NCBI GenBank assembly: GCA_009772935.1
Contig: WOUR01000007.1
Location: forward strand, 1 to 64,000
Length of the DNA stretch: 64,000 nucleotides
Reading direction: 5' to 3'
DNA from: Rhodospirillaceae bacterium
Lineage (GTDB): Bacteria > Pseudomonadota > Alphaproteobacteria > Reyranellales > Reyranellaceae
The notes under the pieces were generated by a model, which was given only the letters and a program-made list of their open reading frames with translations, did no database searches and was not told where the DNA came from. This document shows positions 7,718-22,211 of this stretch, in pieces. The position numbers and the translations under genes were made by a program. How positions within the stretch are numbered: the first letter of the stretch is position 1; each line of letters starts with the position of its first letter.

Positions 7718-8767
7718 TCAGGTGGCAATGCCCAGCGAGTCGAAACCAATGTCGACCGCACGGCGCGTGTCGCCGCTCTCGTCGCGCAGCGCCAGCAGGA
7801 GTGTCCGTGCCGACCAGTCGATCTCGACCACGCCGAAATTGGCGGCGGCGAAGAGAGGGCCAATGCGGTTGGGTCCGGGCTCCTTGGCCGCCCAGTAGAC
7901 CATGTTGAGGCCGCTCGAGGTGACCTCGTACAGCGGATAGAGCGCTTGGTGAGTCTCGCGATAGAGCGCGCCGATGTGACGATCGCCGGACAGGAACACG
8001 ACACCCTTGGCGCCGCTCTCGCGAATCGTATCGACCAGCTTCTGCTTCTCCAGTGGCATGTTTCCCCAGCGCTCCCAGCCATGGCCTTCGGCCAGGACCT
8101 GCGTGCTCGACACGATCAGGCGCAGCTCGGCCGGCTTGCTCAGTTCCCTGGCCAGCCACGCCCATTGCTCGGCACCCAGCATCGTCTTTGCCGGATCCAG
8201 GTCGGGAAGGTAGCGCTGCTTGCCCGGCGCACCGCGCTGGTCGGTGATCCTGAGGGGCGAGCGGAACCAGCGCACGTCCAGCAGGATCACCTGCACGCGC
8301 TTTCCCGCCGGCCCGATGAGCCGTGAATCGTAGATGCCACCGCGTGTGCGCCGTATATCGCCGGGCGGAGCTTCCCAAAAATCGAGGAAGAGGTCTTTCG
8401 CGACTGTCTTGTGGGCAAATTCCACACCGCCATCGTTCGCGCCATAATCATGGTCATCCCAGACGGCGAGATGGGGCACCGTCTCGCGCAGCTTCAGATA
8501 TCCGGCGATGTGCCTGGCTTCGTCGTAGGCTCGCTTCAACTCTTCTGCGTCCTCCGAACTGAAGTCGCCATAGACATTGTCCCCGGCAAAGATGAAGAGG
8601 TCAGGCCGGTAGGCGATGATCGGCTCCCAGATCGGCTGGGGCAAAGTCTGCTTCGCGCACGAGCCGAAAGCGATGCGCGACAGCGGCTTGCCGGGGTGCG
8701 CAAAAGGGGTGGCGGGGGCCAGCGAGGCGGCGCCCGCGAGGCGGGCGAACGTTCGGCGGGTGAACAT
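7718..8767 (-). CDS. PhoD-like alkaline phosphatase / metallophosphoesterase
   Basis: Calcineurin-like phosphoesterase of 349 aa in the PhoD group. Metal-binding blocks appear in order: IAFGSCAKQ (residues 32-40), FAGDNVYGD (60-68), VWDDHDYGAND (102-112) and FLSGDRHIGALY. The N-terminus MFTRRTFARLAGAASLAPA is a twin-arginine (Tat) signal, as expected for PhoD enzymes exported folded with metals. It would cleave phosphomono- or diesters outside the cytoplasm. The start at 8767 is chosen because it begins the Tat signal. An in-frame ATG four codons upstream is possible. The frame stays open to 9454 but that part lies opposite another gene. It is divergent from the small membrane protein gene with a 45-base gap. 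Confidence 0.88.
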   Translation of the reverse strand: MFTRRTFARLAGAASLAPATPFAHPGKPLSRIAFGSCAKQTLPQPIWEPIIAYRPDLFIFAGDNVYGDFSSEDAEELKRAYDEARHIAGYLKLRETVPHLAVWDDHDYGANDGGVEFAHKTVAKDLFLDFWEAPPGDIRRTRGGIYDSRLIGPAGKRVQVILLDVRWFRSPLRITDQRGAPGKQRYLPDLDPAKTMLGAEQWAWLARELSKPAELRLIVSSTQVLAEGHGWERWGNMPLEKQKLVDTIRESGAKGVVFLSGDRHIGALYRETHQALYPLYEVTSSGLNMVYWAAKEPGPNRIGPLFAAANFGVVEIDWSARTLLLALRDESGDTRRAVDIGFDSLGIAT

Positions 8768-8812
8768 GATAAACACCATAATGACATTTTGTGTGGTTTG
8801 GATGGCGGAAGC

Positions 8813-9322
8813 ATGAAGCGCCATTTGAAGCGTGCCCTGGAACTGATTCTGATGCCCCTGGCGGCGGCGATCGTCTTCATCGAAGACGTGCTGCTGCACT
8901 ACCTGGGGGTCGCCATGGCAGCGTTTGCCAAGTGGCCGCCGGTCGCCCGCCTCGAAGCCTGGTTCGCGCGCCTGCCGCCTTGGGGAGCGCTGGTTGCCTT
9001 CGTTGCGCCTTCGGCGCTCGTGCTGCCGATCAAGCTGGCGGCCGTCGGTTTCGCCCTGAGCGGAAAGTTCGCCCTGGCAACGACCAGCATCCTCCTCGGC
9101 AAGATGCTGGCGACCGCTCTGGTCGCGCGCCTCTACAAGATTCTGCGGCCGACCCTGATCACGATGCCCTGGTTCCTTGCCTCCGAGACATGGGTCTTCA
9201 AATGGCGCGACAGACTCTATGCCTTCGTGCAATCCCTGCCAGTCTGGCAGAAGACCAAGGCCATGGCGCGACGTTTGCGTCGCTGGATGTCGGGCCTGGT
9301 CGCCGGCCTTCTTGCCCGTTAA
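8813..9322 (+). CDS. hypothetical membrane-associated protein
   Basis: Unrecognised 169-aa protein. The basic N-terminus MKRHLKRALEL leads into a hydrophobic stretch (about residues 11-38). A second apolar region follows (about 56-95, WGALVAFVAPSALVLPIKLA), and the C-terminus is strongly basic (MARRLRRWMSGL). Two or three membrane segments are likely. The ATG at 8813 has GGAA just upstream. The open frame extends back to 8411 but that part overlaps the divergent phosphoesterase and is excluded. Its last four bases overlap the end of the convergent LysR gene. No catalytic motif is visible. Confidence 0.65.
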   Translation: MKRHLKRALELILMPLAAAIVFIEDVLLHYLGVAMAAFAKWPPVARLEAWFARLPPWGALVAFVAPSALVLPIKLAAVGFALSGKFALATTSILLGKMLATALVARLYKILRPTLITMPWFLASETWVFKWRDRLYAFVQSLPVWQKTKAMARRLRRWMSGLVAGLLAR

Positions 9323-10224
9323 CCGGGCGCGAGGCGGGTGTCGGCCTCGTTTGCCGTCCGCCTTAGGGCTTCGAGAAACCGCTCGACCGAATGCGATGGC
9401 GGAATCAGCGCCGGCAGCAGCACGCCGACGTTGAACAGCGTCCGCGGACGCCATGGCACCAGGACGAGGCGGCTCGTGCCGAGGGCGGCGGGCGTGAGGG
9501 GATCGGCAATCGCAATGCCGGCGCCCTGACCGACCAGTCGGCAGGCGAACTCCAGCGAGTCGGCGACGATGCTCGGACGAATGGCGACGCCCTCGGCCGC
9601 GAACATGGTCTCCACGTCATTGCGCAACTGCGTGCCGGGCCCGAGCACCACGAGAGTCTCGGCGGCAAGATCGCGGGCGCCGAGCGACTTCCGGCGGGCG
9701 AGGGGATGGCGGGCGGGCAGGACGACCACCGCGGGGAGGCTGAGCAGAGGCCGCGCCTCGATGCCGGGATTGTCGAGCGGCAGGGCGCCGATCCCAAGAT
9801 CGAAGGACTGGTTGGCGATGGCCAGTTCGAGTTCACGACGATGAATGATCGCGACGTCGACCTCGATCTCGGGATGATCACGGTGGAAACGGGCCACGGC
9901 CGGCGCCAGCAGGCTGGCGGCGAAACGCGGCATGCTCACGATCCGGAGGCGCGCCCGCGTGCCACCTGCCACGCGCTCGGCGACGCGAGGCAGGTCGTCG
10001 ATCGCCACGAGAACGCGCCGCACCTCGGCGAAGAACGTGGTCCCTTCGGTCGTCGGCACGAGGCGCATGCGATCGCGGTGGAAGAGGCGCAGGCCGGTGG
10101 CGTGTTCCAGACCCGCCAGCAGGCGGCTCGCCGCGGAATGGCTCATGTTCAGCGACTGCGCGGCGGCGCCGAGGCTTCCCAACTCCATGATGCGCAAGAA
10201 GAGCCGCAGCGCCTTCAGTTTCAA
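9319..10224 (-). CDS. LysR family transcriptional regulator
   Basis: LysR-type regulator of 301 aa. A winged helix-turn-helix at the N-terminus (LGSLGAAAQSLNMSHSAASR, residues 16-35) precedes a periplasmic-binding-protein-like effector domain (about 90-295). It starts with TTG at 10224, preceded by AGGTGA on the minus strand; this gives the canonical MKLKALRLFLRIMELGSLGAAA N-terminus. It is divergently transcribed from the sulfatase operon with a 103-base gap holding a perfect T-N11-A palindrome, so it most likely controls that operon and itself. The effector is presumably a substrate or product of the operon. Confidence 0.9.
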   Translation of the reverse strand: MKLKALRLFLRIMELGSLGAAAQSLNMSHSAASRLLAGLEHATGLRLFHRDRMRLVPTTEGTTFFAEVRRVLVAIDDLPRVAERVAGGTRARLRIVSMPRFAASLLAPAVARFHRDHPEIEVDVAIIHRRELELAIANQSFDLGIGALPLDNPGIEARPLLSLPAVVVLPARHPLARRKSLGARDLAAETLVVLGPGTQLRNDVETMFAAEGVAIRPSIVADSLEFACRLVGQGAGIAIADPLTPAALGTSRLVLVPWRPRTLFNVGVLLPALIPPSHSVERFLEALRRTANEADTRLAPG

Positions 10225-11683: not shown

Positions 11684-12642
11684 GACGCGCGCTCCTCCCG
11701 ATCCTCGCGGGCTGCCTCGCGCTCTCGGCCTTCGCAGCCGCGGCGCAGGACTGGCCGAAGAAGACGATCCATATCGTTGTGCCCTTTCCCTCGGGTGGAA
11801 CCACCGACACCGCGGTGCGGCCGCTGGCCGATCGGCTGTCGCAGCAGCTCGGGGTCTCGGTCGTCGTCGAGAACAAGCCCGGAGCGGCCGGCCGCATCGG
11901 CTACGACTTCGCCGCGAAGGCGGCACCCGACGGCTACACCCTGCTCGCGGGCACCGACAGTCTCGGCCTGCAGCCGCATCTCGATCCGCCGCCCAACTAC
12001 GCTCCCATCCGCGACTTCGCGCCGATCGCCCAGCTCTCGTCGCAGCCGCTGGTGATCGCGGTTCATCCCTCGCTCGGAGTGACGACGCTGCACCAGCTCG
12101 TCGAACTCGGTCGCAAGAAGGGCGAGCCGCTCGGATACGCCACGTCGGGTATTGGCTCCTCGCAGAATTTCGCCGGCGAATGGTTCGCTCGTGTCTCTGG
12201 GCTGAAGATGCTGCACGTGCCGTATCGCGGCGGTGGCCAGGCGGTGAACGATCTCCTGGCCGGTCAGGTTCAGCTCGCGGTCCTGGGGATCGCGCCGCTG
12301 ATCCCGTATCAAAAGTCGGGCCGGATCCGCATCCTGGCCGTCACCACCATCGAGAGATCGCCCGCGCTGCCCGATGTGCCTACGCTGAAGGAGCTGGGCT
12401 ACGACGTCGTCGTCGACCAATGGATGGCGTTGCTGGCGCCGGCGAAGGTACCGCCCGCCATCCTCGATCGGCTCAATGCCGAGGTGAATACGGCGCTGCG
12501 CGATGCACGGCTCCGGGAAATCTATGCGGGCGCTGCGATGCGCCCCGTCGGCGGCAGTGCGGCCGACCTCGGGAAGCTGCTCCAGCAAGACCACAGCCGC
12601 TTCGGCAGGCTGACCAAGGAGCTGGGCTTCAAGGCGGAGTAG
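11680..12642 (+). CDS. Bug-type (TctC) tripartite tricarboxylate receptor
   Basis: Second orphan Bug receptor, 320 aa. Signal peptide MRRALLPILAGCLALSAFAA is probably cleaved near AAA-QD (residue 22). The mature chain has WPKKTIHIVVPFPSGGTTD, PDGYTLLAGT, VPYRGGGQAVNDLLAGQ and SPALPDVPTLKELGYD, all standard for the family. It overlaps the sulfatase stop by four bases (ATGA). No TctA/TctB permease genes are nearby, so the receptor either borrows a permease or acts as a sensor. Its operon suggests a sulfated or sulfonated organic ligand, which is inference. Confidence 0.9.
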   Translation: MRRALLPILAGCLALSAFAAAAQDWPKKTIHIVVPFPSGGTTDTAVRPLADRLSQQLGVSVVVENKPGAAGRIGYDFAAKAAPDGYTLLAGTDSLGLQPHLDPPPNYAPIRDFAPIAQLSSQPLVIAVHPSLGVTTLHQLVELGRKKGEPLGYATSGIGSSQNFAGEWFARVSGLKMLHVPYRGGGQAVNDLLAGQVQLAVLGIAPLIPYQKSGRIRILAVTTIERSPALPDVPTLKELGYDVVVDQWMALLAPAKVPPAILDRLNAEVNTALRDARLREIYAGAAMRPVGGSAADLGKLLQQDHSRFGRLTKELGFKAE

Positions 12643-12734
12643 GCTGCCCTTTCGCTCTCCGGTTTGCAGCTTTTGTGACCGTGCGCTCTTGCGTTAGGCT
12701 CGCCCGCAGTGAAGCTCACGGGAGTCGCAGGACC

Positions 12735-13574
12735 ATGCCGGAAGTCGTTCCCAACGCAGCCGCCTTGGGCGCGTGCATCGAAGGGCTCGACCGCGCGTCG
12801 GCGAACGAGCCGGCGGTGGCCGCGCTTCTGAACCGGGCGCTTGCCGAGCATCTGCTGGTGGTGATCCCGGGCGATCCGATGACGCCGGAACAGACGCGTG
12901 AGTTCTCGAAAGCCTTCGGCACGCCGCAGAGACAGTTGCTGCGCTACAAGCGCAGTGGCGCCGTGCCCGACGTGTCAGTCATGGTGAGCACGTTGATGGC
13001 CGACGGCACGACCGACAAGACGGCCATTCGTGCGGAAGACTGGCACACCGACGATTCCTACTTCGCGGTGCCTGCCAAGGCGACCTTGCTGCACAGTATC
13101 GAGATTCCGAGCCACGGCGGAGCGACCTGGTTCTGCAACATGCACTCGGTCTACGACGCCCTGCCGGATGCGACGAAGAAGCGGATCGAGGGCAGGCGCG
13201 CCATTCACGGCTACGACACGCCGCGCGCCCGCAACCGGCCGTCGCCGCGCACGCCCGAGGAGATCGCCGAGACGCCGGATGTCGAGCATCCGCTGGTACG
13301 AACGCATCCGGTGACCGGCCGCAAGGCGCTCTACCTGAACCCTAACCGCCTCGACCGTATCGTCGGGCTGGAGCGTGCCGAAAGCGACGCCCTGCTCGAC
13401 GAACTCGCCGAAGAGGCGCGCAAGCCCCAACACCATTTCGGTCATGTCTGGAGCCGAGGCGACATCGTCGTCTGGGACAACCGGGCCACGATGCACCGTG
13501 TCGTCATTGACTATCCGGTCGGCGAGCAGCGGATCATGCACCGTGTGCTCATCGAGGGCGATCGGCCGTACTGA
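12735..13574 (+). CDS. TauD/TfdA family Fe(II)/2-oxoglutarate dioxygenase
   Basis: Alpha-ketoglutarate-dependent oxygenase of 279 aa. The triad is H104-x-D106 (DWHTDDSYF) and H254 (NRATMHRVV), and R270 (IMHRVLIEG) sits at the position of the 2-oxoglutarate-binding arginine in TauD. Family members oxidise taurine, sulfonates, alkyl sulfate esters (AtsK), phenoxyacetates or carnitine precursors. Next to a sulfatase and a Bug receptor, an organosulfur substrate is a reasonable inference but not proven. The ATG at 12735 gives a standard length; the open frame upstream to 12180 is a shadow inside the Bug gene. The SGNH gene starts within its stop codon. Confidence 0.88.
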   Translation: MPEVVPNAAALGACIEGLDRASANEPAVAALLNRALAEHLLVVIPGDPMTPEQTREFSKAFGTPQRQLLRYKRSGAVPDVSVMVSTLMADGTTDKTAIRAEDWHTDDSYFAVPAKATLLHSIEIPSHGGATWFCNMHSVYDALPDATKKRIEGRRAIHGYDTPRARNRPSPRTPEEIAETPDVEHPLVRTHPVTGRKALYLNPNRLDRIVGLERAESDALLDELAEEARKPQHHFGHVWSRGDIVVWDNRATMHRVVIDYPVGEQRIMHRVLIEGDRPY

Positions 13575-14641
13575 TGAGCGGGGCGGCTCCGTCACGCCGG
13601 CCGTCCGTGCGTTCGGGGCTGATACTCGCTATCCTGACTGTCGTGGTCTGCCTGCTGGCGGCGGAGATGGCGCTGCGGCTGCGCACGTCGGCCAGCCTTT
13701 TGTGGCACTACCCGAACTTCATTCAGCTCGACCTGCGCGCGAACGAATCGGAACGGCCGCAGCTGCGCTACGATACCGTGCTGGGCTGGGACTTGCAGCC
13801 CGGTGCGTCCGGCCTTCTCGCGGGCCGGCCGATTTCGATTTCGCCCGAGGGCATGCGCAACCATGCGTCGGGCGCCAAAGCCGGCCGCGGTCCGACGATC
13901 CTCGCCTTGGGCGATTCCTATACCGAAGGCTTCGCGGTCGCCGATGACGAGACCTGGCCCGCCCATCTCGAACGCCACACCGGCCGGCGCGTCCTGGCCG
14001 GCGGCGTGCGTGATTACGGCCTCGACCAGATGGTCCTCAAGGCCGAAAAGCTGGTGCCGACCCTGAAGCCGGGTGTCGTGGTCCTGGCCTTCATTGCTTC
14101 CGACATCGACCGCACCGGGCGGGCCGCCCGGAACGGGCGACACAAGCCGTACTTCGTGGCGACCGGGGAAGGGCTCGAACTTCGCAACGTTCCGGTGCCG
14201 GCAATGCCGGTGGATGGTCCCGACACGCTGGTGCGTCGCGTGCTGGGCCATTCCTATCTCCTGCACCTCACCATGGGCCGGCTTGGTGCGCATGAGCTCT
14301 GGCATGGCAATACGGTCCATACCGGCGAAGACAGCGATCTGATCTCCTGTCGTCTGATGAGCCGGCTCGCTGCCTTGACTCAACGCGAGAACGTCCAGGC
14401 CCTCGTGGTCGGCTTTCCCCGCTACGAAGACTGGGCTTGGCCGGGGAACGGGATCGTGCAGCATCGGCGTGTGGCGGCCGTCCTCGACTGCGCGAGCAGA
14501 GCCGGGCTGAAGACACTCAACACATACGCCCCCTTCGAACAGGAGGGCGTGGCGCAGGAACTCGAAACCTTCTTCGTCGACTGGCACTTCAGCGACAGGG
14601 CCAATGCGCTGGCGGCGCGACTGATCGCGCCGGCTCTCTAG
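13574..14641 (+). CDS. SGNH/GDSL hydrolase family protein, membrane-anchored
   Basis: Protein of 355 aa with an N-terminal membrane anchor (about residues 14-36) and an SGNH-type domain facing the periplasm. Block I is LALGDSYTEGF with S115 as nucleophile. FIASDID (about 173-179) stands in the place of the GxND block, and DWHFSDRANALA near the C-terminus carries the Asp/His pair. This resembles acyltransferase- or esterase-type SGNH proteins acting on polysaccharide or lipid. The ATG overlaps the stop of the dioxygenase gene (TGATG), so it belongs to the sulfatase operon, where de-esterification of the substrate is one possible role. It converges with the two-domain hydrolase gene, overlapping by four bases. 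Confidence 0.75.
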   Translation: MSGAAPSRRPSVRSGLILAILTVVVCLLAAEMALRLRTSASLLWHYPNFIQLDLRANESERPQLRYDTVLGWDLQPGASGLLAGRPISISPEGMRNHASGAKAGRGPTILALGDSYTEGFAVADDETWPAHLERHTGRRVLAGGVRDYGLDQMVLKAEKLVPTLKPGVVVLAFIASDIDRTGRAARNGRHKPYFVATGEGLELRNVPVPAMPVDGPDTLVRRVLGHSYLLHLTMGRLGAHELWHGNTVHTGEDSDLISCRLMSRLAALTQRENVQALVVGFPRYEDWAWPGNGIVQHRRVAAVLDCASRAGLKTLNTYAPFEQEGVAQELETFFVDWHFSDRANALAARLIAPAL

Positions 14642-16374
14642 CGTCGCAACTGGCCGAGGAAACAAATCATCTCGGCCGCGGCATCCTCCCGGCTCTCAGA
14701 CGAAATCAGCGCATGGTCCATTCGAGGCACGATCCGAATTTCGGCACCGCGATAGTGGGTTAGTGCATCGGGCTCCAGGGTGAATTCGCGCCGGAACATC
14801 TCGAGGTCTTCCTTCGCCGGCGAAAACAGGAAGAGAGTCTTGACTCCGCGTGCGCAAAGGTCCGACAGAGCCGATTGGGCGAAGGACTGTTTGCGGATGA
14901 GGCCGAGCGCCCGTCCGATCTGCCGCGTCCCCAGGCGAGCGAAACGCAGGCCACGGACCCAGAGCGAGTGCAGGGTCCTGCCGATGTCGACCCGTCCGTC
15001 GAGGAGCGTGCGCCAGCTCTGCGGACTGGCGATCTTGCGAAGATAGAAGAGCGGCGTCTGGCCGCGATGATCGAGGTAGGTGATTTCATCCGGCCGTCGC
15101 GGCAGGGTGAAGAGCGGCTGGTTGACCAGCATCAGAGCGCTGATGCGCCGATCGGCGAGTGCCCCATGGAAGGCGTGATAGGCACCCGAGCAGATTCCTT
15201 GCACCGTGAATCTCCGGAAACCGAGCTTCTCGAGGGCGTCGACCATCGCGCGAATGTCCGAGGTCCGGTCGGCGAACGCGTGACTGATGATGTTTTCCTT
15301 GCCAGGTGGGCCGAGACTGTCGCCCAGACCGGCAAAGTCCGCCCGCAACGATGAGAACCCGCAACGGCCGAGACGGCGCGCAAACTCCGCGCCTTGTCGT
15401 GATGCTCCATAGCGGGGGTCCCTGCCGCCATTCACGATGATCACGATGTCCCTGGACGGGCCCGCTTCGGGGTTGCAGACGATTCCGAACAGCCGCCGGC
15501 CGGGGCCGAAGCGGAGCGTCGTCTCGATACAGTCGCCCGGCCGCAAGGTGACCTCGGCGGGCAGGGCGGGCGGGCAGCGCTCGCTCACCGGCGAACCCGT
15601 CGCAAGGGGGAAGGCTGCCGTCACCCAGCCGACCACGTCGCGAAAGCTCGGGAGCTGCACGGCATCGAATGTCGGGTGCCCGACCAGGGAATTCAGATCG
15701 TCGCTCCAGTTGCCCTTTGTCACTTCGAGGCCCGCATGCCGCCAGCGATCGAGGCATTCGTCGACCAGCCGGGTCTCCGCACGAGTGAACACCGCAACCT
15801 TCTGGCCCGCTCTTGGGCACGTCTTGCGCAGGTCCGTGCTGGCGATCTCGGCGAGCGTGTTGCCGCCGAACCTGAACTCGCCGACTTCGATACCGCCTCC
15901 CGACGGCAGCACCCGGCCCCCATGAAGCTCGGCATCGAGCGTCAATTCACGGACATAAGAGCGCCCGCTCACCGTGGGTTCGAACAGAAGGAGCCCGACA
16001 ATGTCGTCCCGGCGGGAAGCCACCAGGGTCGTCAGCAGGGCGCCGGCCCGCATGCTGCAGATCACGAGTTTCCCGGCACCACTCACGGACTTCAGCCAGT
16101 CCGCGATGGTGTCGATGCTGTCCTGCCAGGCCGGCCAGTGGCCGTCCGACCGGGCGAGAGCCTGATCGCAGGAGTCGCCGGTGCCCGGATACTCCAGGCG
16201 AACGGTCCAATACCCGGTCCGCGCCAGTTCGTCGGCGAGCACCCTGAGGGCGCAATACGCCACCAGCTCGTCCCCCAGCAAACCGGGACAAACCAGAACC
16301 GCCACGTTACTACGACGAGCGTCGACAGGCGTGTGAAGCCATCCGAAGCAGTCGTTAACCGCAATCGGTGTCAT
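14638..16374 (-). CDS. two-domain alpha/beta hydrolase, second domain with Cys nucleophile
   Basis: Protein of 578 aa built from two alpha/beta-hydrolase-like halves (about 1-260 and 285-578). In the first half the elbow reads CSMRAGALL, so the nucleophile position is R109, as in exosortase-associated hydrolase-like proteins; this half is probably inactive. In the second half the elbow is QGICSGAYHAF, giving C395 as a G-x-C-x-G nucleophile. A histidine is available in RMDHALI near the C-terminus, and D346 or D352 lies in LRADFAGLGDS. No signal peptide. It is divergent from the carrier-protein operon with a 145-base shared control region, so an acyl/aminoacyl thioesterase or transferase role in that pathway is plausible but inferred. 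The start ATG is preceded by GGAAGG. Confidence 0.7.
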   Translation of the reverse strand: MTPIAVNDCFGWLHTPVDARRSNVAVLVCPGLLGDELVAYCALRVLADELARTGYWTVRLEYPGTGDSCDQALARSDGHWPAWQDSIDTIADWLKSVSGAGKLVICSMRAGALLTTLVASRRDDIVGLLLFEPTVSGRSYVRELTLDAELHGGRVLPSGGGIEVGEFRFGGNTLAEIASTDLRKTCPRAGQKVAVFTRAETRLVDECLDRWRHAGLEVTKGNWSDDLNSLVGHPTFDAVQLPSFRDVVGWVTAAFPLATGSPVSERCPPALPAEVTLRPGDCIETTLRFGPGRRLFGIVCNPEAGPSRDIVIIVNGGRDPRYGASRQGAEFARRLGRCGFSSLRADFAGLGDSLGPPGKENIISHAFADRTSDIRAMVDALEKLGFRRFTVQGICSGAYHAFHGALADRRISALMLVNQPLFTLPRRPDEITYLDHRGQTPLFYLRKIASPQSWRTLLDGRVDIGRTLHSLWVRGLRFARLGTRQIGRALGLIRKQSFAQSALSDLCARGVKTLFLFSPAKEDLEMFRREFTLEPDALTHYRGAEIRIVPRMDHALISSESREDAAAEMICFLGQLRR

Positions 16375-16519: not shown

Positions 16520-16783
16520 GTGTCCTCGCCGCTGAAGGTTCGCATTCGATCCGTTCTGAAAAGTGCTGGATGTCTGCAAAATGGTTTGGAGGTTATTGGG
16601 GATGACGCCGACCTGCACGCGGCCGGGCTGACCTCGCACGCCACGGTGAGCCTCATGCTGGCGCTTGAAGAGGCGTTCGACATCGAGTTTCCGGACCGGC
16701 TTCTGCGGCGCCGGACATTTTCCAGCATCGATGCCATCGCCGAAGCCCTTGGCGAGATCGGTGTGCGAGATGAGGCGACATGA
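16520..16783 (+). CDS. stand-alone acyl/aminoacyl carrier protein
   Basis: Carrier protein of 87 aa. The phosphopantetheine site is S39 in DLHAAGLTSHATVSLML, matching the D-L-x3-G-(L/M)-(D/T)-S pattern, with Thr before Ser as in carrier proteins served by amino acid:[carrier protein] ligases. It carries the growing or loaded residue as a thioester on a 4'-phosphopantetheine arm, to be added by a general PPTase; none is encoded here. GTG start with GGGAG 5 bases upstream. Its end overlaps the flavoprotein gene by ATGA. It is not the fatty-acid AcpP, because the motif and surroundings differ. Confidence 0.88.
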   Translation: MSSPLKVRIRSVLKSAGCLQNGLEVIGDDADLHAAGLTSHATVSLMLALEEAFDIEFPDRLLRRRTFSSIDAIAEALGEIGVRDEAT

Positions 16784-17940
16784 GCCCGTGGCTCGCCGCG
16801 GCCCGCGCGGTGGGAGCTGAAATCGCCGCCCGGCATGCCGATGACGTCGACGTGCGGGCCCGCTTTCCGGGCGAGGCTCTGGCGGCGCTGAAGGACCGCA
16901 AGCTGCTTGGCATCCTGGTGCCCGAGAGCGCGGGAGGCCCCGGTGCCGGCATCGCCGATGTGGTGTCGGTCTGCCATGAACTCGGCCAGCATTGCGCGTC
17001 CACGGCCATGATCTACGCAATGCATCAGATCCAGACAGCGTGCATCGTCCAGCACGCCGGACAGGATCCCTGGCTGCGCACCTTCCTGAAGCGTCTGGCC
17101 GAGGATCAATTGCTGCTCGCATCGGCAACGTCGGAAGCGGGCGTAGGCGGCGACGTGAGGTCGAGCATCTGTGCGCTGACGGAGAGGCGGGGGCGCTTCA
17201 GCCTGGTCAAGCAGGCGCCGGTGATCTCCTACGGCGAGGAAAGCGACGCGATCCTGGTGACGGCCCGACGGACGCCACAGTCGCCGGCCTCCGATCAGGT
17301 GATTGTCGTCGTGCCGCGGGCCGGTGTCGAGTTCCAGCCCCAGGAAACGTGGAACACTCTCGGCATGCGCGGGACATGCTCGAAGGGCCATCGCCTGACG
17401 GTGGAAGGGGAGATGGCGCAGGTCATCCCCGTGCCCTATGCCGATGTGTCCTCCCAGACCATGCTTCCGGTCTCCCATCTCGTGTGGAGCGCCCTTTGGC
17501 TCGGGATTGCCAGCGATGCTTTGGGCCGGGCGCGGGCCTTCGTTCGCGCAGAGGTGAAGACGAGTTCCGGCGAGTCGCCTCCGGGTGGCGGCCGACTGGC
17601 CGGGGCGGCCATCGAACTGCAGACCATGAAGAGCAACCTCATTACTTGCTTACGCGCGTACGAGGCGGCGATCGGGTCGGCCGACAGGCTCTCGGCAATT
17701 TCCTTTGCCGTTGCCATGAACAACCTAAAGCTCGCCTCCTCGCAATCCGTGGTGAAGATCGTCGGCGAGGCGATGCTGATCTGCGGCCTGGCTGGCTATC
17801 GCATCGACTCACGCTTCAGCGTGGGACGCCATCTGCGCGATGCACACTCGGCTGCCGTGATGGTCAACAACGACCGGATCATCGCGAACAATGCCACGCT
17901 GGCTCTGGCGCTGCGCGACGACCGGGAACTCCTCGCGTGA
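16780..17940 (+). CDS. acyl-CoA dehydrogenase-like flavoprotein, canonical Glu missing
   Basis: Protein of 386 aa with the acyl-CoA dehydrogenase fold: N-terminal helical domain with the usual VPESAGGPGAGIAD, central beta domain with LASATSEAGVGGD, and C-terminal helical domain ending GYRIDSRFSVGRHLRDAHSA. Where classical enzymes carry the catalytic glutamate (EGT motif after the conserved RDA), this one has V362-N363-N364, so ordinary alpha,beta-dehydrogenation by that base is doubtful. Some family members use a Glu elsewhere, others catalyse N-oxidation or hydroxylation. It overlaps the carrier protein (ATGA) and the ligase (GTGA), so the likely substrate is a carrier-bound amino acid, for example oxidation of an aminoacyl thioester. 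That role is inferred. Confidence 0.85.
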   Translation: MSPWLAAARAVGAEIAARHADDVDVRARFPGEALAALKDRKLLGILVPESAGGPGAGIADVVSVCHELGQHCASTAMIYAMHQIQTACIVQHAGQDPWLRTFLKRLAEDQLLLASATSEAGVGGDVRSSICALTERRGRFSLVKQAPVISYGEESDAILVTARRTPQSPASDQVIVVVPRAGVEFQPQETWNTLGMRGTCSKGHRLTVEGEMAQVIPVPYADVSSQTMLPVSHLVWSALWLGIASDALGRARAFVRAEVKTSSGESPPGGGRLAGAAIELQTMKSNLITCLRAYEAAIGSADRLSAISFAVAMNNLKLASSQSVVKIVGEAMLICGLAGYRIDSRFSVGRHLRDAHSAAVMVNNDRIIANNATLALALRDDRELLA

Positions 17941-18860
17941 AGGAAGATGCAACCCCGGCCTATGAGGCGTTTCGGGACGAGTTGCTTAGCCATGGCCTGC
18001 TGATTTCCATGGGCGTCGATGGACTGTACGGGCGGAGCGGGACGTTCGAGCATGTCGTGGAATGCCTGAACGCGGCGATCGGAGCGGCGGGCGACCCGGA
18101 CGAGCCCGAGATCATGCGCTTTCCGCCCGGCATCGGCAGTTTGCAGCTCGAGAAGAGCGGCTATGTCCGGAACTTTCCGAATCTGCCTGGCACCGTCGCC
18201 AGTTTCGCCGGCTCGGATCAGGACCATGCCGCGCTTCTCGTCAGGCTGGCGAACGGCGAGGACTGGACCGGCACGCAGCGCCCTACGGGCGTCGCCCTGA
18301 CTCCGGCCGCCTGCTATGGTGTCTACCCGGTGATCGCATCGCGCGGGCGGCTTGCCGCCGGCGGGGCGCTGGTCGACGTCTACACCTGGTGCTTCCGCCA
18401 CGAGCCGTCTATCGATCCGGCGCGCATGCAGATGTTCCGGCAACGCGAGCATGTCCGCATCGGCTCGCCGGAACAGGTCTCGTCGTTCCGGGCGCTCTGG
18501 CTCGGGAGGGCCCGCGCTCTCGTGGAATCCCTCGGCTTGCCCGTTGCGATCGAAGTCGCAAACGATCCCTTTTTCGGGCGGGCGGGCAGGCTCCTCGCGG
18601 CCAACCAGCGCGAGCAAAGCCTCAAGTTCGAGCTATTGGTTCCGATCGTCGCCGAGGGGCCGCGCACGGCCTGCGTCAGTTTCAACGACCATCGCGACCT
18701 GTTCGGCCGTGCTTGGGCCATCGCGACGGAGACAGGCGATACGGCTCACACGGCCTGCGTCGGATTCGGCGTCGAGCGGCTGACGCTCGCTCTGTTTCGC
18801 CATCACGGCTTCGCTCTCGCGAATTGGCCGGGCAGCGTCCGCAATGTCCTCGGACTCTGA
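17937..18860 (+). CDS. amino acid:[carrier protein] ligase (class II aaRS homologue)
   Basis: A 307-aa catalytic-core-only homologue of atypical seryl-tRNA synthetase. The family activates an amino acid with ATP and transfers it to the phosphopantetheine of a carrier protein instead of tRNA (shown for Bradyrhizobium and Agrobacterium enzymes, mostly glycine or alanine). Visible features are motif 2 around FRQREHVRIG (residues 167-176) and motif 3 as GFGVERLTLALFRHHG (276-291). C126 (LTPAACYGVYP), E171 and C274 (HTACVGFGVE) are placed for a Cys-Glu-Cys zinc site. No tRNA-binding arm is present. GTG start inside the stop of the flavoprotein gene. The carrier protein is the first gene of the same operon. 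Which amino acid is used cannot be read by eye. Confidence 0.88.
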   Translation: MKEDATPAYEAFRDELLSHGLLISMGVDGLYGRSGTFEHVVECLNAAIGAAGDPDEPEIMRFPPGIGSLQLEKSGYVRNFPNLPGTVASFAGSDQDHAALLVRLANGEDWTGTQRPTGVALTPAACYGVYPVIASRGRLAAGGALVDVYTWCFRHEPSIDPARMQMFRQREHVRIGSPEQVSSFRALWLGRARALVESLGLPVAIEVANDPFFGRAGRLLAANQREQSLKFELLVPIVAEGPRTACVSFNDHRDLFGRAWAIATETGDTAHTACVGFGVERLTLALFRHHGFALANWPGSVRNVLGL

Positions 18861-19815
18861 GGCCGTCGATCTTCTGGAGCTCAGCGCTGCGACGTGGAGG
18901 CCGAGCGCGCTTCACGGTGTTGATCGGGTCTGGCCCGAGACCAATTGCTACGTCGATCTGTGGGTGGAACTGCTGCCGGCGCTCGGCCATCCGGTCGAAG
19001 CGGCGCTTTCTTTCACGGTGTTGCAGGATTTCGAGGGCGATCAATTCACCTTCTTCAAGTTTCCATTGCAGGACCTGCAGGCACTTTTCGGCCTCGCAGT
19101 GCAGGAGCTTGCCCTCTACGAATCGGTCGAAGCGCAAGCGATGGCGCAGCTTCGCCGCGGGCGGCCCGTGCTGGTCGAGGTCGATGCCTTCTGGCTGCCC
19201 GATGCCGGCGATGCCTATCGCAAGGCGCATGTGAAGACGAGCGTGGCCGTCATTGCGCTCGATCCGGGACGCAAGCGCTTCGGATACTTCCACGGTACCG
19301 GCTATCGCGAGCTGTCGGGCGAGGATTATGACGGGCTGTTTCGCCAGCCGACGGTCCTGTTTCCCTATGCCGAGTTCGTGAAGCGCGATGGCGAGGCGCG
19401 GGCAGGGCATGAACTGCTCGACGCTTCCCTGACGCTCCTGCGCGGTCACCTGACGCGGCGTCCGCGCAAGAACCCGATAGAGGCATGGCAGGCGGCGCTG
19501 CCGTCGCATGTCGAGAGGTTGGCCGGCCAGGACATGGCCTACTTTCATCTCTATGCCTTCAACGGGCCCCGTCAGCTCGGTGCGAACTTCGAGATGCTCG
19601 GCACCTACCTGCAATGGCTGGGCGCCAACGGGGTCGACGGTCTCGCCGATGCCGCGGCCACCGGCCGGCGCATTGCCGAGGCCGCCAAGACCGTGCAGTT
19701 CCAGCTGGCGCGCATGGTTCATCGCCGGAAGTTCGACGCGGATGCCGTGGCGCTGGCGCCGCTCGCCGCGGACTACGATTCCGTATTCGCGGCCCTCGCC
19801 GCCCGGTTCGCCTGA
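18844..19815 (+). CDS. DUF1839 family protein
   Basis: A 323-aa cytoplasmic protein of the uncharacterised DUF1839 family, found with amino acid:[carrier protein] ligases. It starts with a conserved-looking block, WPETNCYVDLWVELL (about residues 30-44), with a cysteine (C35) that could be catalytic. It then has DFEGDQFTFFKFP and VLVEVDAFWLPD, and a C-terminal helical half (FHLYAFNGPRQLGANFEMLG). The Cys plus later His residues (AHVKTSVAV; FHGTGYREL) recall a papain-like or transglutaminase-like layout, which is my inference. The first 17 bases overlap the ligase gene and the last base overlaps the GH2 gene. A role in moving the aminoacyl group off the carrier protein is possible. Confidence 0.8.
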   Translation: MSSDSEAVDLLELSAATWRPSALHGVDRVWPETNCYVDLWVELLPALGHPVEAALSFTVLQDFEGDQFTFFKFPLQDLQALFGLAVQELALYESVEAQAMAQLRRGRPVLVEVDAFWLPDAGDAYRKAHVKTSVAVIALDPGRKRFGYFHGTGYRELSGEDYDGLFRQPTVLFPYAEFVKRDGEARAGHELLDASLTLLRGHLTRRPRKNPIEAWQAALPSHVERLAGQDMAYFHLYAFNGPRQLGANFEMLGTYLQWLGANGVDGLADAAATGRRIAEAAKTVQFQLARMVHRRKFDADAVALAPLAADYDSVFAALAARFA

Positions 19816-22211
19816 TGGAATGGCAACTCGCCTGTACTGCACCCGGGGCGGTGGCGAGGCCGGGCGACCTGCTGCCGGCGCTGGACTGGATCGCGGCGCC
19901 GGTGCCGGGGACGGCGGCCCAGGCCCTGCGCGATGTGGGGCGCTGGACGCTGGAACGACCGCTTCCGCTGCATGACCAGGACATCTGGTATCGCACCCGG
20001 TTTGGCGGAAATGGACCGCGCGTGCTGCGCTTCTGCGGGCTGGCGACCGTGGCGGAGGTCTGGCTGAACGGACGGTCAATTCTCGTCTCCGACAACATGT
20101 TCCTCACGCACGACGTTGAGGTCGAGCTCGCCGGTGAAAACGAACTCGCGATCGTTTTCCGTTCGCTCGACGCCGAGCTTGCGCGTCGAAAGAAGAGGGC
20201 GCGCTGGCGGACGGCGCTGGTCGCGGACAATGGCTTGCGACAGGTGCGCACGACGCTGCTGGGGCACATGACCGGCTGGCAGCCTGCAGCGCACGCGGTT
20301 GGACCGTGGCGTGAGATCGAGGTGTTGGAGAAGGCAAGGCCGTTGCGGGTGGAGTCCGTCGAGGTTCGCGCCACGCTCGACGGCAACGACGGTCTGCTCG
20401 CCGTAACCCTCGATGTCGATTGCGCCGGCGTACGGCCGGCGGCGCGGCTGGAAATTGCCGGCCGCAGCGTGCCGCTGGCATGGTCTGTGGAGGGGCGTCT
20501 CGAGGGCGCAGCGCATCTCCCGGGTGTGGAGAAGTGGTGGCCGCATACTCATGGCACACCGTTCCTGTACCCGGCGCGGGTCATCGCGGGCGACGTCGAG
20601 GTCGATCTCGGTCGGGTTGGATTCAGATCGATCGAGGTCGATCGGGGACCCGACGAACGGGGTTTCATGCTTAAGGTGAATGGGCAGGCGCTCTTTGCCC
20701 GGGGGGCGTGCTGGAGCACGGCGGATCTCGTCACGTTGAGGGGCGACCGCGACACGCTGGCGCCGTGGCTGCGTCGGGCGCGCGATGCGAACATGAACAT
20801 GATCCGCGTTGGCGGGACGATGCTCTACGAGAGCGACGATTTCTTCGCCCTGTGCGATGAGCTCGGCCTTCTCGTCTGGCACGACTTCATGTTCGCCAAC
20901 ATGGACTACCCGATTGCGGATCCGACATTCCGTGCGAGCGTCGAGCGGGAGGCGGATCAGTTCCTCGCCCGCGTCCAGTCGCATCCGTCGCTCGCCGTCC
21001 TGTGCGGTGGCAGCGAGATCGCCCAGCAGGCAGCGATGCTCGGACTGCCGCCGACGCTCTGGAGAAGTGCGCTGTTCGACGAGATCCTTCCGGGGATCGC
21101 CAAGGCCCGCTGCCCGCAGGTGGTTTTCGTCGCGCAGTCGCCCAGTGGTGGCGATCTGCCGTTCCAGGTCGATGCAGGGGTGTCTCACTATTACGGCGTC
21201 GGCGCTTACAGGCGGCCCCTCGAAGATGCGCGGCGCGCCGGTGTCCGGTTCGCCACCGAGTGCCTGGCCTTTGCGAATGCGCCTGCCGCGGCGACGCCGG
21301 CGCGCGGCCCGGACCGGGTGCCCCGCGACCGCGGCGCCGACTGGGACTTCAGCAGTGTGCGCGACCACTATCTCACGCTGATCTACGGCGTCGATGCCGC
21401 GGATCTGCAGGCCGAGGATCCGGCGCACTATCTCAGGCTTTCGCGGGCCGTGTCGGCCGATCTGATGGAAGCCGTGATCGCCGAATGGCGGCGGCCGGCC
21501 TCGTCCTGCGCCGGGGCGCTGGTCTGGATGCTGAAGGACCTGAGCGCGGGGCCGGGCTGGGGCGTCGTGGATCCCGCCGGCATGCCCAAGCTCGCCTGGC
21601 ACGGGTTGCGGCGCGCCTTCCGGCCGGTCCAGGTCGCGCTTACGGACGAGGGGCTGAACGGCCTCGGCGTGCACCTGGTCAACGAGACGGCGGCGCCGGT
21701 CTCGGCCAGCCTGTCATTGCTCTGCCTGCAGGCCGGCGACGTGGTCGTGATGCTGCGGGAATGCGAACTTGTACTGCCGCCGCGAAGCGCACGGACGATG
21801 ACCTCGGCCGAGCTCATCGGCTCGTTCTTCGACATCACCTACGCCTACCGCTTCGGCCCGCCGCCGCTCGAGGTCGCCGTTGTCACGCTGGAGGATTCCG
21901 GCTCGGGTGAACGTCTCGGCGAGGCTGCGCACTTCCCGCTGGGCCGCGCGGCGATCGCGCACGATCCGGGCCTGTCGGCAGAACTGGAGCGGGACGGGGA
22001 GGGGTGGTGGGTCGCGATCCGGGCGACGCGATTCGCGCCCTGCATCCAGATCGAGGTACCGCACCACCATGCCGAGGACGAAGGCTTCCACCTGCTGCCG
22101 GGCGAGCAACGGCGCGTGAGATTGCTGTCGGCCGGGGCGGCCGGGGGCCGGCCGGCCGGCGAGGTGCTTTCCGTAACTCCGGCGCGGGCAAAGGCCTGTC
22201 GATTCGCCTAA
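19815..22211 (+). CDS. glycoside hydrolase family 2 / beta-mannosidase-like protein
   Basis: A 798-aa protein with the GH2 layout: jelly-roll domain (about 1-175), immunoglobulin-like sandwich (176-275), TIM barrel (about 280-600) and C-terminal beta domains. Barrel landmarks are MLKVNGQALFARGACW and MNMIRVGGTMLYESDDFF. The acid/base residue is E401 (VLCGGSEIAQQ, where beta-mannosidases have NGNNE) and the nucleophile is E482 (RFATECLAF). There is no signal peptide, so it works in the cytoplasm, unusual for a scavenging glycosidase. ATG overlaps the DUF1839 stop (TGATG); its end overlaps the convergent CoA-transferase gene by four bases. It may trim or transfer a sugar on a product of this operon. 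Substrate unknown. Confidence 0.82.
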   Translation: MEWQLACTAPGAVARPGDLLPALDWIAAPVPGTAAQALRDVGRWTLERPLPLHDQDIWYRTRFGGNGPRVLRFCGLATVAEVWLNGRSILVSDNMFLTHDVEVELAGENELAIVFRSLDAELARRKKRARWRTALVADNGLRQVRTTLLGHMTGWQPAAHAVGPWREIEVLEKARPLRVESVEVRATLDGNDGLLAVTLDVDCAGVRPAARLEIAGRSVPLAWSVEGRLEGAAHLPGVEKWWPHTHGTPFLYPARVIAGDVEVDLGRVGFRSIEVDRGPDERGFMLKVNGQALFARGACWSTADLVTLRGDRDTLAPWLRRARDANMNMIRVGGTMLYESDDFFALCDELGLLVWHDFMFANMDYPIADPTFRASVEREADQFLARVQSHPSLAVLCGGSEIAQQAAMLGLPPTLWRSALFDEILPGIAKARCPQVVFVAQSPSGGDLPFQVDAGVSHYYGVGAYRRPLEDARRAGVRFATECLAFANAPAAATPARGPDRVPRDRGADWDFSSVRDHYLTLIYGVDAADLQAEDPAHYLRLSRAVSADLMEAVIAEWRRPASSCAGALVWMLKDLSAGPGWGVVDPAGMPKLAWHGLRRAFRPVQVALTDEGLNGLGVHLVNETAAPVSASLSLLCLQAGDVVVMLRECELVLPPRSARTMTSAELIGSFFDITYAYRFGPPPLEVAVVTLEDSGSGERLGEAAHFPLGRAAIAHDPGLSAELERDGEGWWVAIRATRFAPCIQIEVPHHHAEDEGFHLLPGEQRRVRLLSAGAAGGRPAGEVLSVTPARAKACRFA

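Follow-up and report, generated by a model that had tools for sequence, protein, structure and literature searches.

A candidate aminoacyl-transfer pathway powered by a tRNA-synthetase-like ligase in a conserved proteobacterial gene cassette

Introduction

What is built by a gene set that combines a carrier protein and a ligase resembling a tRNA synthetase with a flavoprotein, a protein of the DUF1839 family and a glycosidase? The question is raised by a locus of Rhodospirillaceae bacterium (assembly GCA_009772935.1, contig WOUR01000007.1; a draft genome of 6.01 Mb in 124 contigs), which lies in the 64,000-nucleotide stretch analysed here, referred to below as the window. Homologues of the ligase have been shown biochemically to load an amino acid on a carrier protein, and Mocibob et al. 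reportedly described the amino acid:[carrier protein] ligase in 2010. An earlier sequence-only reading of the locus proposed a small route, independent of the ribosome and of nonribosomal peptide synthetases (NRPS), in which an amino acid is loaded on the carrier, oxidised there, released or transferred, and then modified or freed from a sugar.

That interpretation is partly supported by the present analysis. The cassette appears to join an amino acid to an amine without the use of a ribosome, a tRNA or a classical peptide synthetase, and the balance of the evidence leans slightly towards an aminoacyl-transfer pathway which is powered by the synthetase-like ligase and whose product is likely to reside in a surface glycan. 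The locus comprises five plus-strand genes, each overlapping the next, as the earlier reading had described them, and both the coordinates and the curated families agree with that description; the set of five is correct as far as it goes, but it overlooked a divergent sixth gene, and the cassette is really one of six genes:

14638..16374, minus strand (divergent): sixth gene, a two-domain alpha/beta hydrolase of 578 aa, with a Cys elbow G393-I-C395-S-G397 and D553-H554
16520..16783, plus strand: aminoacyl carrier protein of 87 aa, GTG start, phosphopantetheine site S39
16780..17940, plus strand: flavoprotein of the acyl-CoA dehydrogenase fold, 386 aa, 4-nt overlap with the carrier gene
17937..18860, plus strand: amino acid:[carrier protein] ligase of 307 aa, GTG start, class II synthetase core, 4-nt overlap with the flavoprotein gene
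18844..19815, plus strand: DUF1839 protein of 323 aa, papain-like, with C35, T132/S133 and H150, 17-nt overlap with the ligase gene
19815..22211, plus strand: glycoside hydrolase family 2 (GH2) enzyme of 798 aa, with S400-E401 and E482, 1-nt overlap with the DUF1839 gene

The ATG at 19815 is the likelier start of the GH2 gene than the position 19485 given by the open reading frame list, because the additional part from 19485 falls wholly within the DUF1839 gene in another frame, and because relatives align to the 798-residue form from residue 1-3 onwards.

Residue conservation was evaluated in 81 loci, which consist of the window and the best 80 of 207 confirmed relatives that were obtained by scanning a collection of species genomes with DUF1839 as the sole key. 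Sequences with internal stops or below 80-85 percent of full length were dropped from the alignments, which contain 79 carriers, 78 flavoproteins, 74 ligases, 79 DUF1839 proteins and 73 GH2 enzymes.

Results and discussion

Loading of the carrier protein

The assignment of the ligase is straightforward, since it matches NF005479 at 454.8 bits (cut-off 357) and its nearest solved chains are the amino acid--[ACP] ligases 4h2w and 3mey (E 1.6e-89 and 3.7e-87); its score against the general Pfam family tRNA-synt_2b, 26.5, lies under the cut-off of 29.3. The residues C126, E171 and C274, which we take to be the zinc ligands Cys-Glu-Cys, are kept in all 74 aligned ligases and have the same letters in the aligned 4h2w chain. 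The enzyme has no tRNA-binding domain in its 307 residues, and the type-2 seryl-tRNA synthetase 3w3s (527 aa) is matched over its residues 308-505 only. The carrier matches NF005480 at 102.3 bits (cut-off 72), its relatives in the PDB include 4h2w_C (E 1.6e-19) and 2jq4 (Atu2571, E 2.8e-19), and the proposed attachment site S39 is invariant in the 79 aligned carriers, together with E50 and E56. No adenylation or condensation domain of the classical NRPS kind occurs among the Pfam matches of the six genes. Loading of the carrier by the ligase in this cassette is thus very probable, and the NRPS-independent loading that had been proposed is borne out to the extent that these family scores, zinc-ligand positions and the missing tRNA-binding part can predict it.

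The condensing-enzyme fold of DUF1839

The DUF1839 protein matches PF08893 at 392.1 bits (cut-off 22.5), and its AlphaFold2 model has a mean predicted local distance difference test score (pLDDT) of 92. A Foldseek search with this model gave 13 matches at E <=0.001, all of them entries of AziU3/U2, CtaG and CcbD. In VIA-align comparisons the model aligns with CcbD at Z 20.2 over 285 residues and 3.1 A, the best scores for AziU3/U2 and CtaG are 18.4 and 17.6, and 14 entries of the condensing type fall between 16.6 and 20.2 over 269-289 residues; the next row, at 7.8, is a papain-like protease. The fold combines a papain-like first half with a helical second half, so that enzymes of the CcbD/CtaG type are matched over the whole length, while proteases match the N-terminal half only, with Z <=7.8.

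According to PMC12945683, CcbD works by a ping-pong mechanism with Cys, His and Glu, in which proline held on a carrier is coupled to a thiooctose at its amino group, and arginines near the C-terminus of the enzyme bind the carrier. In the aligned DUF1839 proteins C35, H129, K131 and H150 are invariant (79/79) and position 132 is T or S; R290 is kept in all 79 and position 294 is R in 78. By residue offset only, R290 and R294 stand at the carrier-binding place of CcbD, and their counterparts on the carrier would be the invariant E50 and E56. PMC10318531 assigns DUF1839 to the papain-like superfamily, gives it a C-T/S-H triad and offers, as a guess from genomic context, a role in acyl-CoA-dependent glycan processing; the main text of that paper mentions neither CcbD nor lincosamides. 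The candidate catalytic Cys, C35, is present in every aligned sequence, the placement of the triad is taken from the account in PMC10318531, and T132 (T/S) and the invariant H150 agree with it.

On the strength of the model, DUF1839 is probably a carrier-dependent acyltransferase, and it is proposed here as a putative carrier-dependent amide synthase, for which an amino sugar has about an even chance of being the acceptor. The earlier expectation that the loaded amino acid is released or transferred therefore becomes one of transfer, given that the DUF1839 fold is shared with condensing enzymes that depend on a carrier.

The flavoprotein lacks the usual catalytic base

The flavoprotein passes the cut-offs of PF02771 (53.8, cut-off 22.9) and PF00441 (27.7, cut-off 22.4), and its middle domain scores 24.3 against PF02770, under the cut-off of 33.3. 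It has the acyl-CoA dehydrogenase fold, and was aligned to 7p98 and 4kto. The canonical catalytic glutamate of such enzymes occupies one of two positions, which we take to be those of E376 in MCAD and E254 in IVD. The first corresponds to residue 362, which is I or V in all 78 aligned flavoproteins, and the second to residue 232, which is S, T, C or A in all 78; the adjacent H233 is invariant. With neither Glu nor Asp at either position in any sequence, a classical acyl-CoA dehydrogenase was ruled against, and the supposition that the amino acid is oxidised on the carrier by ordinary chemistry of this kind is not supported in that form. Ordinary alpha,beta-desaturation appears unlikely because the usual base is absent, and oxidation of the amine to an imine, or monooxygenation, is the better guess; the latter is the reaction proposed for the redox enzyme in PMC2922099.

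The GH2 enzyme and the sixth gene

The GH2 enzyme matches PF22666 at 65.1 (cut-off 27) and PF17753 at 26.4 (cut-off 22.6), and its closest relatives in the PDB are beta-mannosidases. Its acid/base motif is Ser-Glu (S400-E401) rather than Asn-Glu in all 73 aligned enzymes, E482, the second catalytic Glu by alignment, is likewise kept in all 73, and G333 aligns with the Trp of the 2vjx chain that marks the beta-mannosidase Trp position, at which the 73 relatives have Gly (46), Ser (15), Pro (7), Ala (3), Cys (1) or another residue (1). The N-terminus contains no strongly hydrophobic stretch (the best 15-residue Kyte-Doolittle mean is 1.0), which makes the cytoplasmic location that had been suggested for this enzyme a reasonable one. 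According to PMC12243196, the SE motif and a small residue at the His/Trp position are the hallmarks of GH2_14, the subfamily in which signal peptides are rarest among those studied there. The window enzyme thus seems to have GH2_14-like features, a likeness drawn from the hallmark residues described in that paper. The two tested GH2_14 members cut pNP- and oNP-beta-galactoside (nitrophenyl substrates) with 1-3 turnovers per minute, lacto-N-tetraose and beta-1,6-galactobiose are weak substrates of one of the two, and the authors consider the pocket suited to substituted substrates, with the SE motif leaving room for modified sugars (PMC12243196). An aminoacylated amino sugar would fit as such a substrate. 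The Ser that precedes the acid/base Asp in CsxA (as reported in PMC6566704) leaves this reading unaffected.

In 48 of the 81 loci the sixth gene is no more than 240 nt away from the cassette, and it may stand on either side of it and in either orientation. In 48 sequences its C-terminal domain keeps, at the 95 percent level, the Cys elbow G393-x-C395-x-G397 and the pair D553-H554; at the N-terminal elbow the Ser is absent from its usual place in most of 18 sequences. Exosortase A-associated hydrolases 1 and 2 were considered as identities and rejected: the protein is related to them but scores 96.2 bits against TIGR03100 (cut-off 168.45) and 64.6 against TIGR03101 (cut-off 202.75), and the window's own genome contains no match to TIGR03100 over the cut-off. 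Generic esterases and lipases are among the matches listed by a fold search, which gave no functional hint.

Conservation and co-occurrence of the six genes

If the six proteins belong to one pathway, their genes should be retained together. All five overlapping genes occur in the same order in 74 of the 81 loci, so that the survey upholds the quintet as a conserved unit; two of the remaining seven loci are cut by contig ends, four have no adjoining GH2 gene and one lacks the flavoprotein and the ligase. In these counts one locus (L042) was scored as full although its ligase is split over two frames and its GH2 gene is cut by a contig end, and the DUF1839 gene of another (L083), which the overlap filter had masked, was added manually. 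The loci come from Reyranella, Azospirillum, Rhizobium and relatives, Methylobacterium, Caballeronia, Paraburkholderia and others; the best named relatives of the window's DUF1839 suggest an alphaproteobacterial source near Reyranella.

Co-occurrence was evaluated in two genome samples picked independently of gene content (385 members of the class and 398 of the phylum), where each of the six families was called by running HMMER over stop-to-stop reading frames. Genomes with DUF1839 number 5 among the 385 and 16 among the 398, which amounts to 19 distinct genomes, and in all 19 a ligase over the cut-off lies directly upstream of a DUF1839 gene and is adjoined by carrier and flavoprotein genes; one ligase match (G557) carries a single in-frame TAA and was scored as present. 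The comparison group consists of 15 genomes with an over-cut-off ligase and no DUF1839. GH2 is found in 19/19 of the DUF1839 genomes, at 711 bits or more, versus 0/15 of the ligase-only genomes at E 1e-20, and the sixth gene, by profile match, in 19/19 versus 3/15; of these three matches, two lie near the ligase and one consists of two weak pieces with stops. Within a single genus (g221), both GH2 and the sixth gene are present in the two DUF1839 genomes and missing from the three ligase-only genomes. A further genome (G186) retains both genes even though they lie together, about 20 nt apart, on a different contig from the cassette. Fisher tests on the co-occurrence give 5e-10 and 8e-7, values which are overstated because the DUF1839-linked ligases form nearly one clade in the ligase tree (53 rows, from 34 genomes and 19 chosen loci), the only interlopers being the ligases of G131 and G316.

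The tree and the neighbourhoods separate two types of ligase, a split that is added by the present analysis. Thirteen of the 15 ligases without DUF1839 form a separate clade with an adjoining flavoprotein. The loci of G131 (L107) and G316 (L110) have a third arrangement, of carrier, ligase and two-domain hydrolase, with no flavoprotein, DUF1839 or GH2 gene nearby. Among the other loci without DUF1839, phosphorylase-family and IF-2B-family genes are found near L106 (G361) and genes of the O-acetylhomoserine-sulfhydrylase and homoserine-succinyltransferase types near L109 (G070), which perhaps reflects methionine metabolism; a class IV aminotransferase gene lies near L166, and a gene for an Abhydrolase_3 esterase near L108, L165 and L168.

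Two further observations concern the distribution of the cassette. A congener of the window's organism (G066) has no ligase, DUF1839, GH2 or sixth gene at the thresholds used, and the cassette is accessory within the genus. The locus of Paraburkholderia ribeironis (L066, 9550-11911) has only the carrier and DUF1839 together with three weak GH2-like pieces, perhaps a decayed cassette.

The proposed pathway and its product

Taken together, these features suggest a pathway of four steps. The ligase would activate a small amino acid with ATP and load it on the phosphopantetheine arm that the carrier bears at S39, as its homologues do. The flavoprotein would then alter the carrier-bound aminoacyl group, with amine oxidation or monooxygenation as a likelier change than alpha,beta-desaturation. 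C35 of DUF1839 would take up the acyl group and pass it to an amine, which, judging by fold and context, most likely belongs to a sugar, and the GH2 enzyme and the two-domain hydrolase would act in the cytoplasm on the aminoacyl sugar or on a precursor of it. The likely home of the product would be a surface glycan, which is suggested directly by the neighbourhoods of some relatives. In one locus (L177) the cassette lies beside the sixth gene and genes of the polysaccharide flippase, polysaccharide deacetylase, sugar-transfer-associated ATP-grasp, Wzz, O-antigen-ligase and glycosyltransferase families; in another (L176) Wza and Wzc lie downstream of the cassette. Second copies of DUF1839 without a ligase of their own are found in polysaccharide gene clusters (L174, 235-1452, in G681; L175, 91-1299, in G613), with ManC, Wzc, the sixth gene, glycosyltransferases and Wza as neighbours, and a single loaded carrier may serve two transferases in such genomes. 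The surface-glycan destination is partly supported by these loci; taken by itself, a surface-glycan product has somewhat less than an even chance. That the six enzymes form a widespread route which decorates the amino sugars of surface glycans with oxidised amino acids, in which the flavoprotein makes a non-standard acyl group of the bound amino acid for DUF1839 to attach, and in which the GH2 enzyme and the Cys-nucleophile hydrolase are obligatory partners, is a more tentative proposition, and a rather doubtful one.

Several observations weigh against this reading. The triad of DUF1839 does not follow the canonical order Cys-His-Glu/Asp but is permuted to C-T/S-H, as given in PMC10318531, and since the order differs from that of CcbD, what is claimed here is a likeness of work and not membership of the CcbD family. 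A DUF1839 sequence profile run against the PDB sequences retrieved no chain of the CcbD type and no condensing enzyme, and the BtrH_N match of 16.7 bits lies under the cut-off of 29.7; the link to CcbD therefore rests on predicted structure, at 10-12 percent identity. The near-single clade of ligases means that the genome counts are not independent events, and the GH2 gene does not adjoin DUF1839 in 4 of 80 loci. As regards the glycan, the conserved set has no sugar-nucleotide or glycosyltransferase gene, and the window holds nothing that matches the exemplar polysaccharide genes. Nor do the counts show a general link to polysaccharide export: 4 of the 19 genomes, which are the four sampled members of one family, have a Wza-family gene no more than 20 kb from a DUF1839 gene, and 0 of the 15 ligase-only genomes have one near the ligase (Fisher p 0.11).

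The window's own genome has two Wza-family genes, both on contigs other than that of the cassette, and with no match to the exemplar polysaccharide genes in the window a small-molecule product therefore stays a real rival. The cassette would in that case make a diffusible, lincosamide-like aminoacyl sugar, and the work of the GH2 enzyme and the hydrolase would be to trim or unmask it. CcbD and CtaG do belong to antibiotic pathways, a carrier, a ligase and a condensing enzyme would be a minimal set for such a compound, and the exemplar polysaccharide genes lie near few of the 81 loci; in the flanks of those loci, however, no conserved exporter or resistance gene was seen, and the second DUF1839 copies sit in polysaccharide clusters. 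On this evidence a small aminoacyl sugar seems unlikely, though it is the best placed of the alternatives to a surface glycan.

An acceptor other than a sugar is improbable. In this case another carrier-bound or lipid-bound amine, or a peptide, would receive the acyl group to give a short modified peptide or an aminoacyl lipid, and the GH2 enzyme would act on a separate glycoside, as the loci in which it does not adjoin DUF1839 might indicate. For CtaG, a close structural match, PMC6772006 proposes the transfer of a peptidyl group from one carrier to another, but the present set has a single carrier gene, and GH2 is retained in all 19 DUF1839 genomes even when it is located elsewhere. A catabolic cassette, in which GH2 cleaves a glycoside to free an amino acid, the amino acid is oxidised on the carrier, and DUF1839 and the hydrolase release it by hydrolysis, is very improbable: a flavoprotein, an alpha/beta hydrolase and a glycosidase would suit breakdown, and an esterase gene lies near three ligase loci without DUF1839, but ATP-driven loading points to biosynthesis, and DUF1839 is matched over its full length by condensing enzymes and over its N-terminal half only by proteases.

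Relation to described systems

The gene neighbourhood itself is not new. A note in proof in PMC2922099 (Biol Direct 2010) described it and predicted the same reaction from neighbourhoods: the Atu2571-Atu2574-type system outlined there has a ligase, a carrier, a redox enzyme, a conserved uncharacterised ORF (open reading frame) and a glycosidase, and is predicted to ligate an amino acid to the amino group of a sugar by an amide bond. From the gene order, Atu2574 should be the DUF1839 protein. The structural match of DUF1839 leads to that reaction by a different route. The window cassette thus adds a member to a neighbourhood that had already been described. The earlier reading was right that the final product is not established, since no reported product and no experimental test of the 2010 prediction were found in the literature, but it had missed that a nearly identical pathway proposal was in print. 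To that account the present analysis adds the sixth gene, the GH2_14-like features, the CcbD-like structural evidence and the two ligase types; the absence of the flavoprotein base and the co-occurrence test are also new here.

The lincosamide condensation carried out by CcbD/LmbD resembles the proposed reaction in that an enzyme whose Cys triad is protease-like couples a carrier-bound amino acid to an amino sugar, and the folds match. It differs in that the amino acid is activated by an adenylation domain instead of a synthetase-like ligase, and the cassette has a permuted triad, an additional flavoprotein, GH2 enzyme and hydrolase, and no sequence match to the lincosamide enzymes. LmbD and CcbD were without sequence relatives in 2015, according to the account given in PMC4351081, which leaves the reading unaffected. 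CtaG of closthioamide and AziU3/U2 of azinomycin biosynthesis share the DUF1839 fold, and the transfer of a carrier-bound acyl group has been proposed for CtaG as well (PMC6772006), but their acceptors and pathways are other ones, and the titles of CtaG variants in the PDB (C11A, H128A, D144N) suggest a canonical triad, unlike that of DUF1839. The tested GH2_14 members, which share with the window enzyme the SE motif, the small residue at the His/Trp position and the lack of an evident signal peptide, cleave beta-galactosides slowly, and neither is tied to a pathway in the available text of PMC12243196.

The chemistry of the ligase dates from 2010, and the presence of a CcbD-like enzyme in the same operon now offers a concrete, testable reaction, while the retention of six genes tells which proteins belong in a reconstitution. 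If the reading is true, it would give DUF1839 and this type of GH2 enzyme a shared biological role, and would add a route for amino-acid decoration without a tRNA or a peptide synthetase in soil- and plant-associated Proteobacteria.

Other neighbours of the cassette

Flanking genes were called with a simple script based on GC content by codon position, which misplaced some genes. Besides the sixth gene, no family was found in more than 23 of the 81 flanks, and the most frequent was a LysR regulator. Window neighbours that were considered as core genes and rejected are a TauD dioxygenase (5/81 loci), a CoA-transferase (6/81) and a GDSL enzyme (10/81). M20 peptidases (11 and 9 loci) and an SbmA/BacA-like transporter (13 loci), with examples in Azospirillum, were read as lineage synteny, as were EF-P (16 of 81 loci), EpmA-like (17) and EpmB-like (15) genes, which lie approximately 0.25-6.3 kb upstream of the cassette (for example in Neorhizobium, L052, 1726-4569); EF-P, EpmA and EpmB constitute another synthetase-like aminoacylation system, and their neighbourhood is probably plain synteny. 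Upstream of the cassette in the window are a gene for a PhoD-like phosphatase (7718-9454, minus strand) and the TauD-like dioxygenase reading frame (12180-13574).

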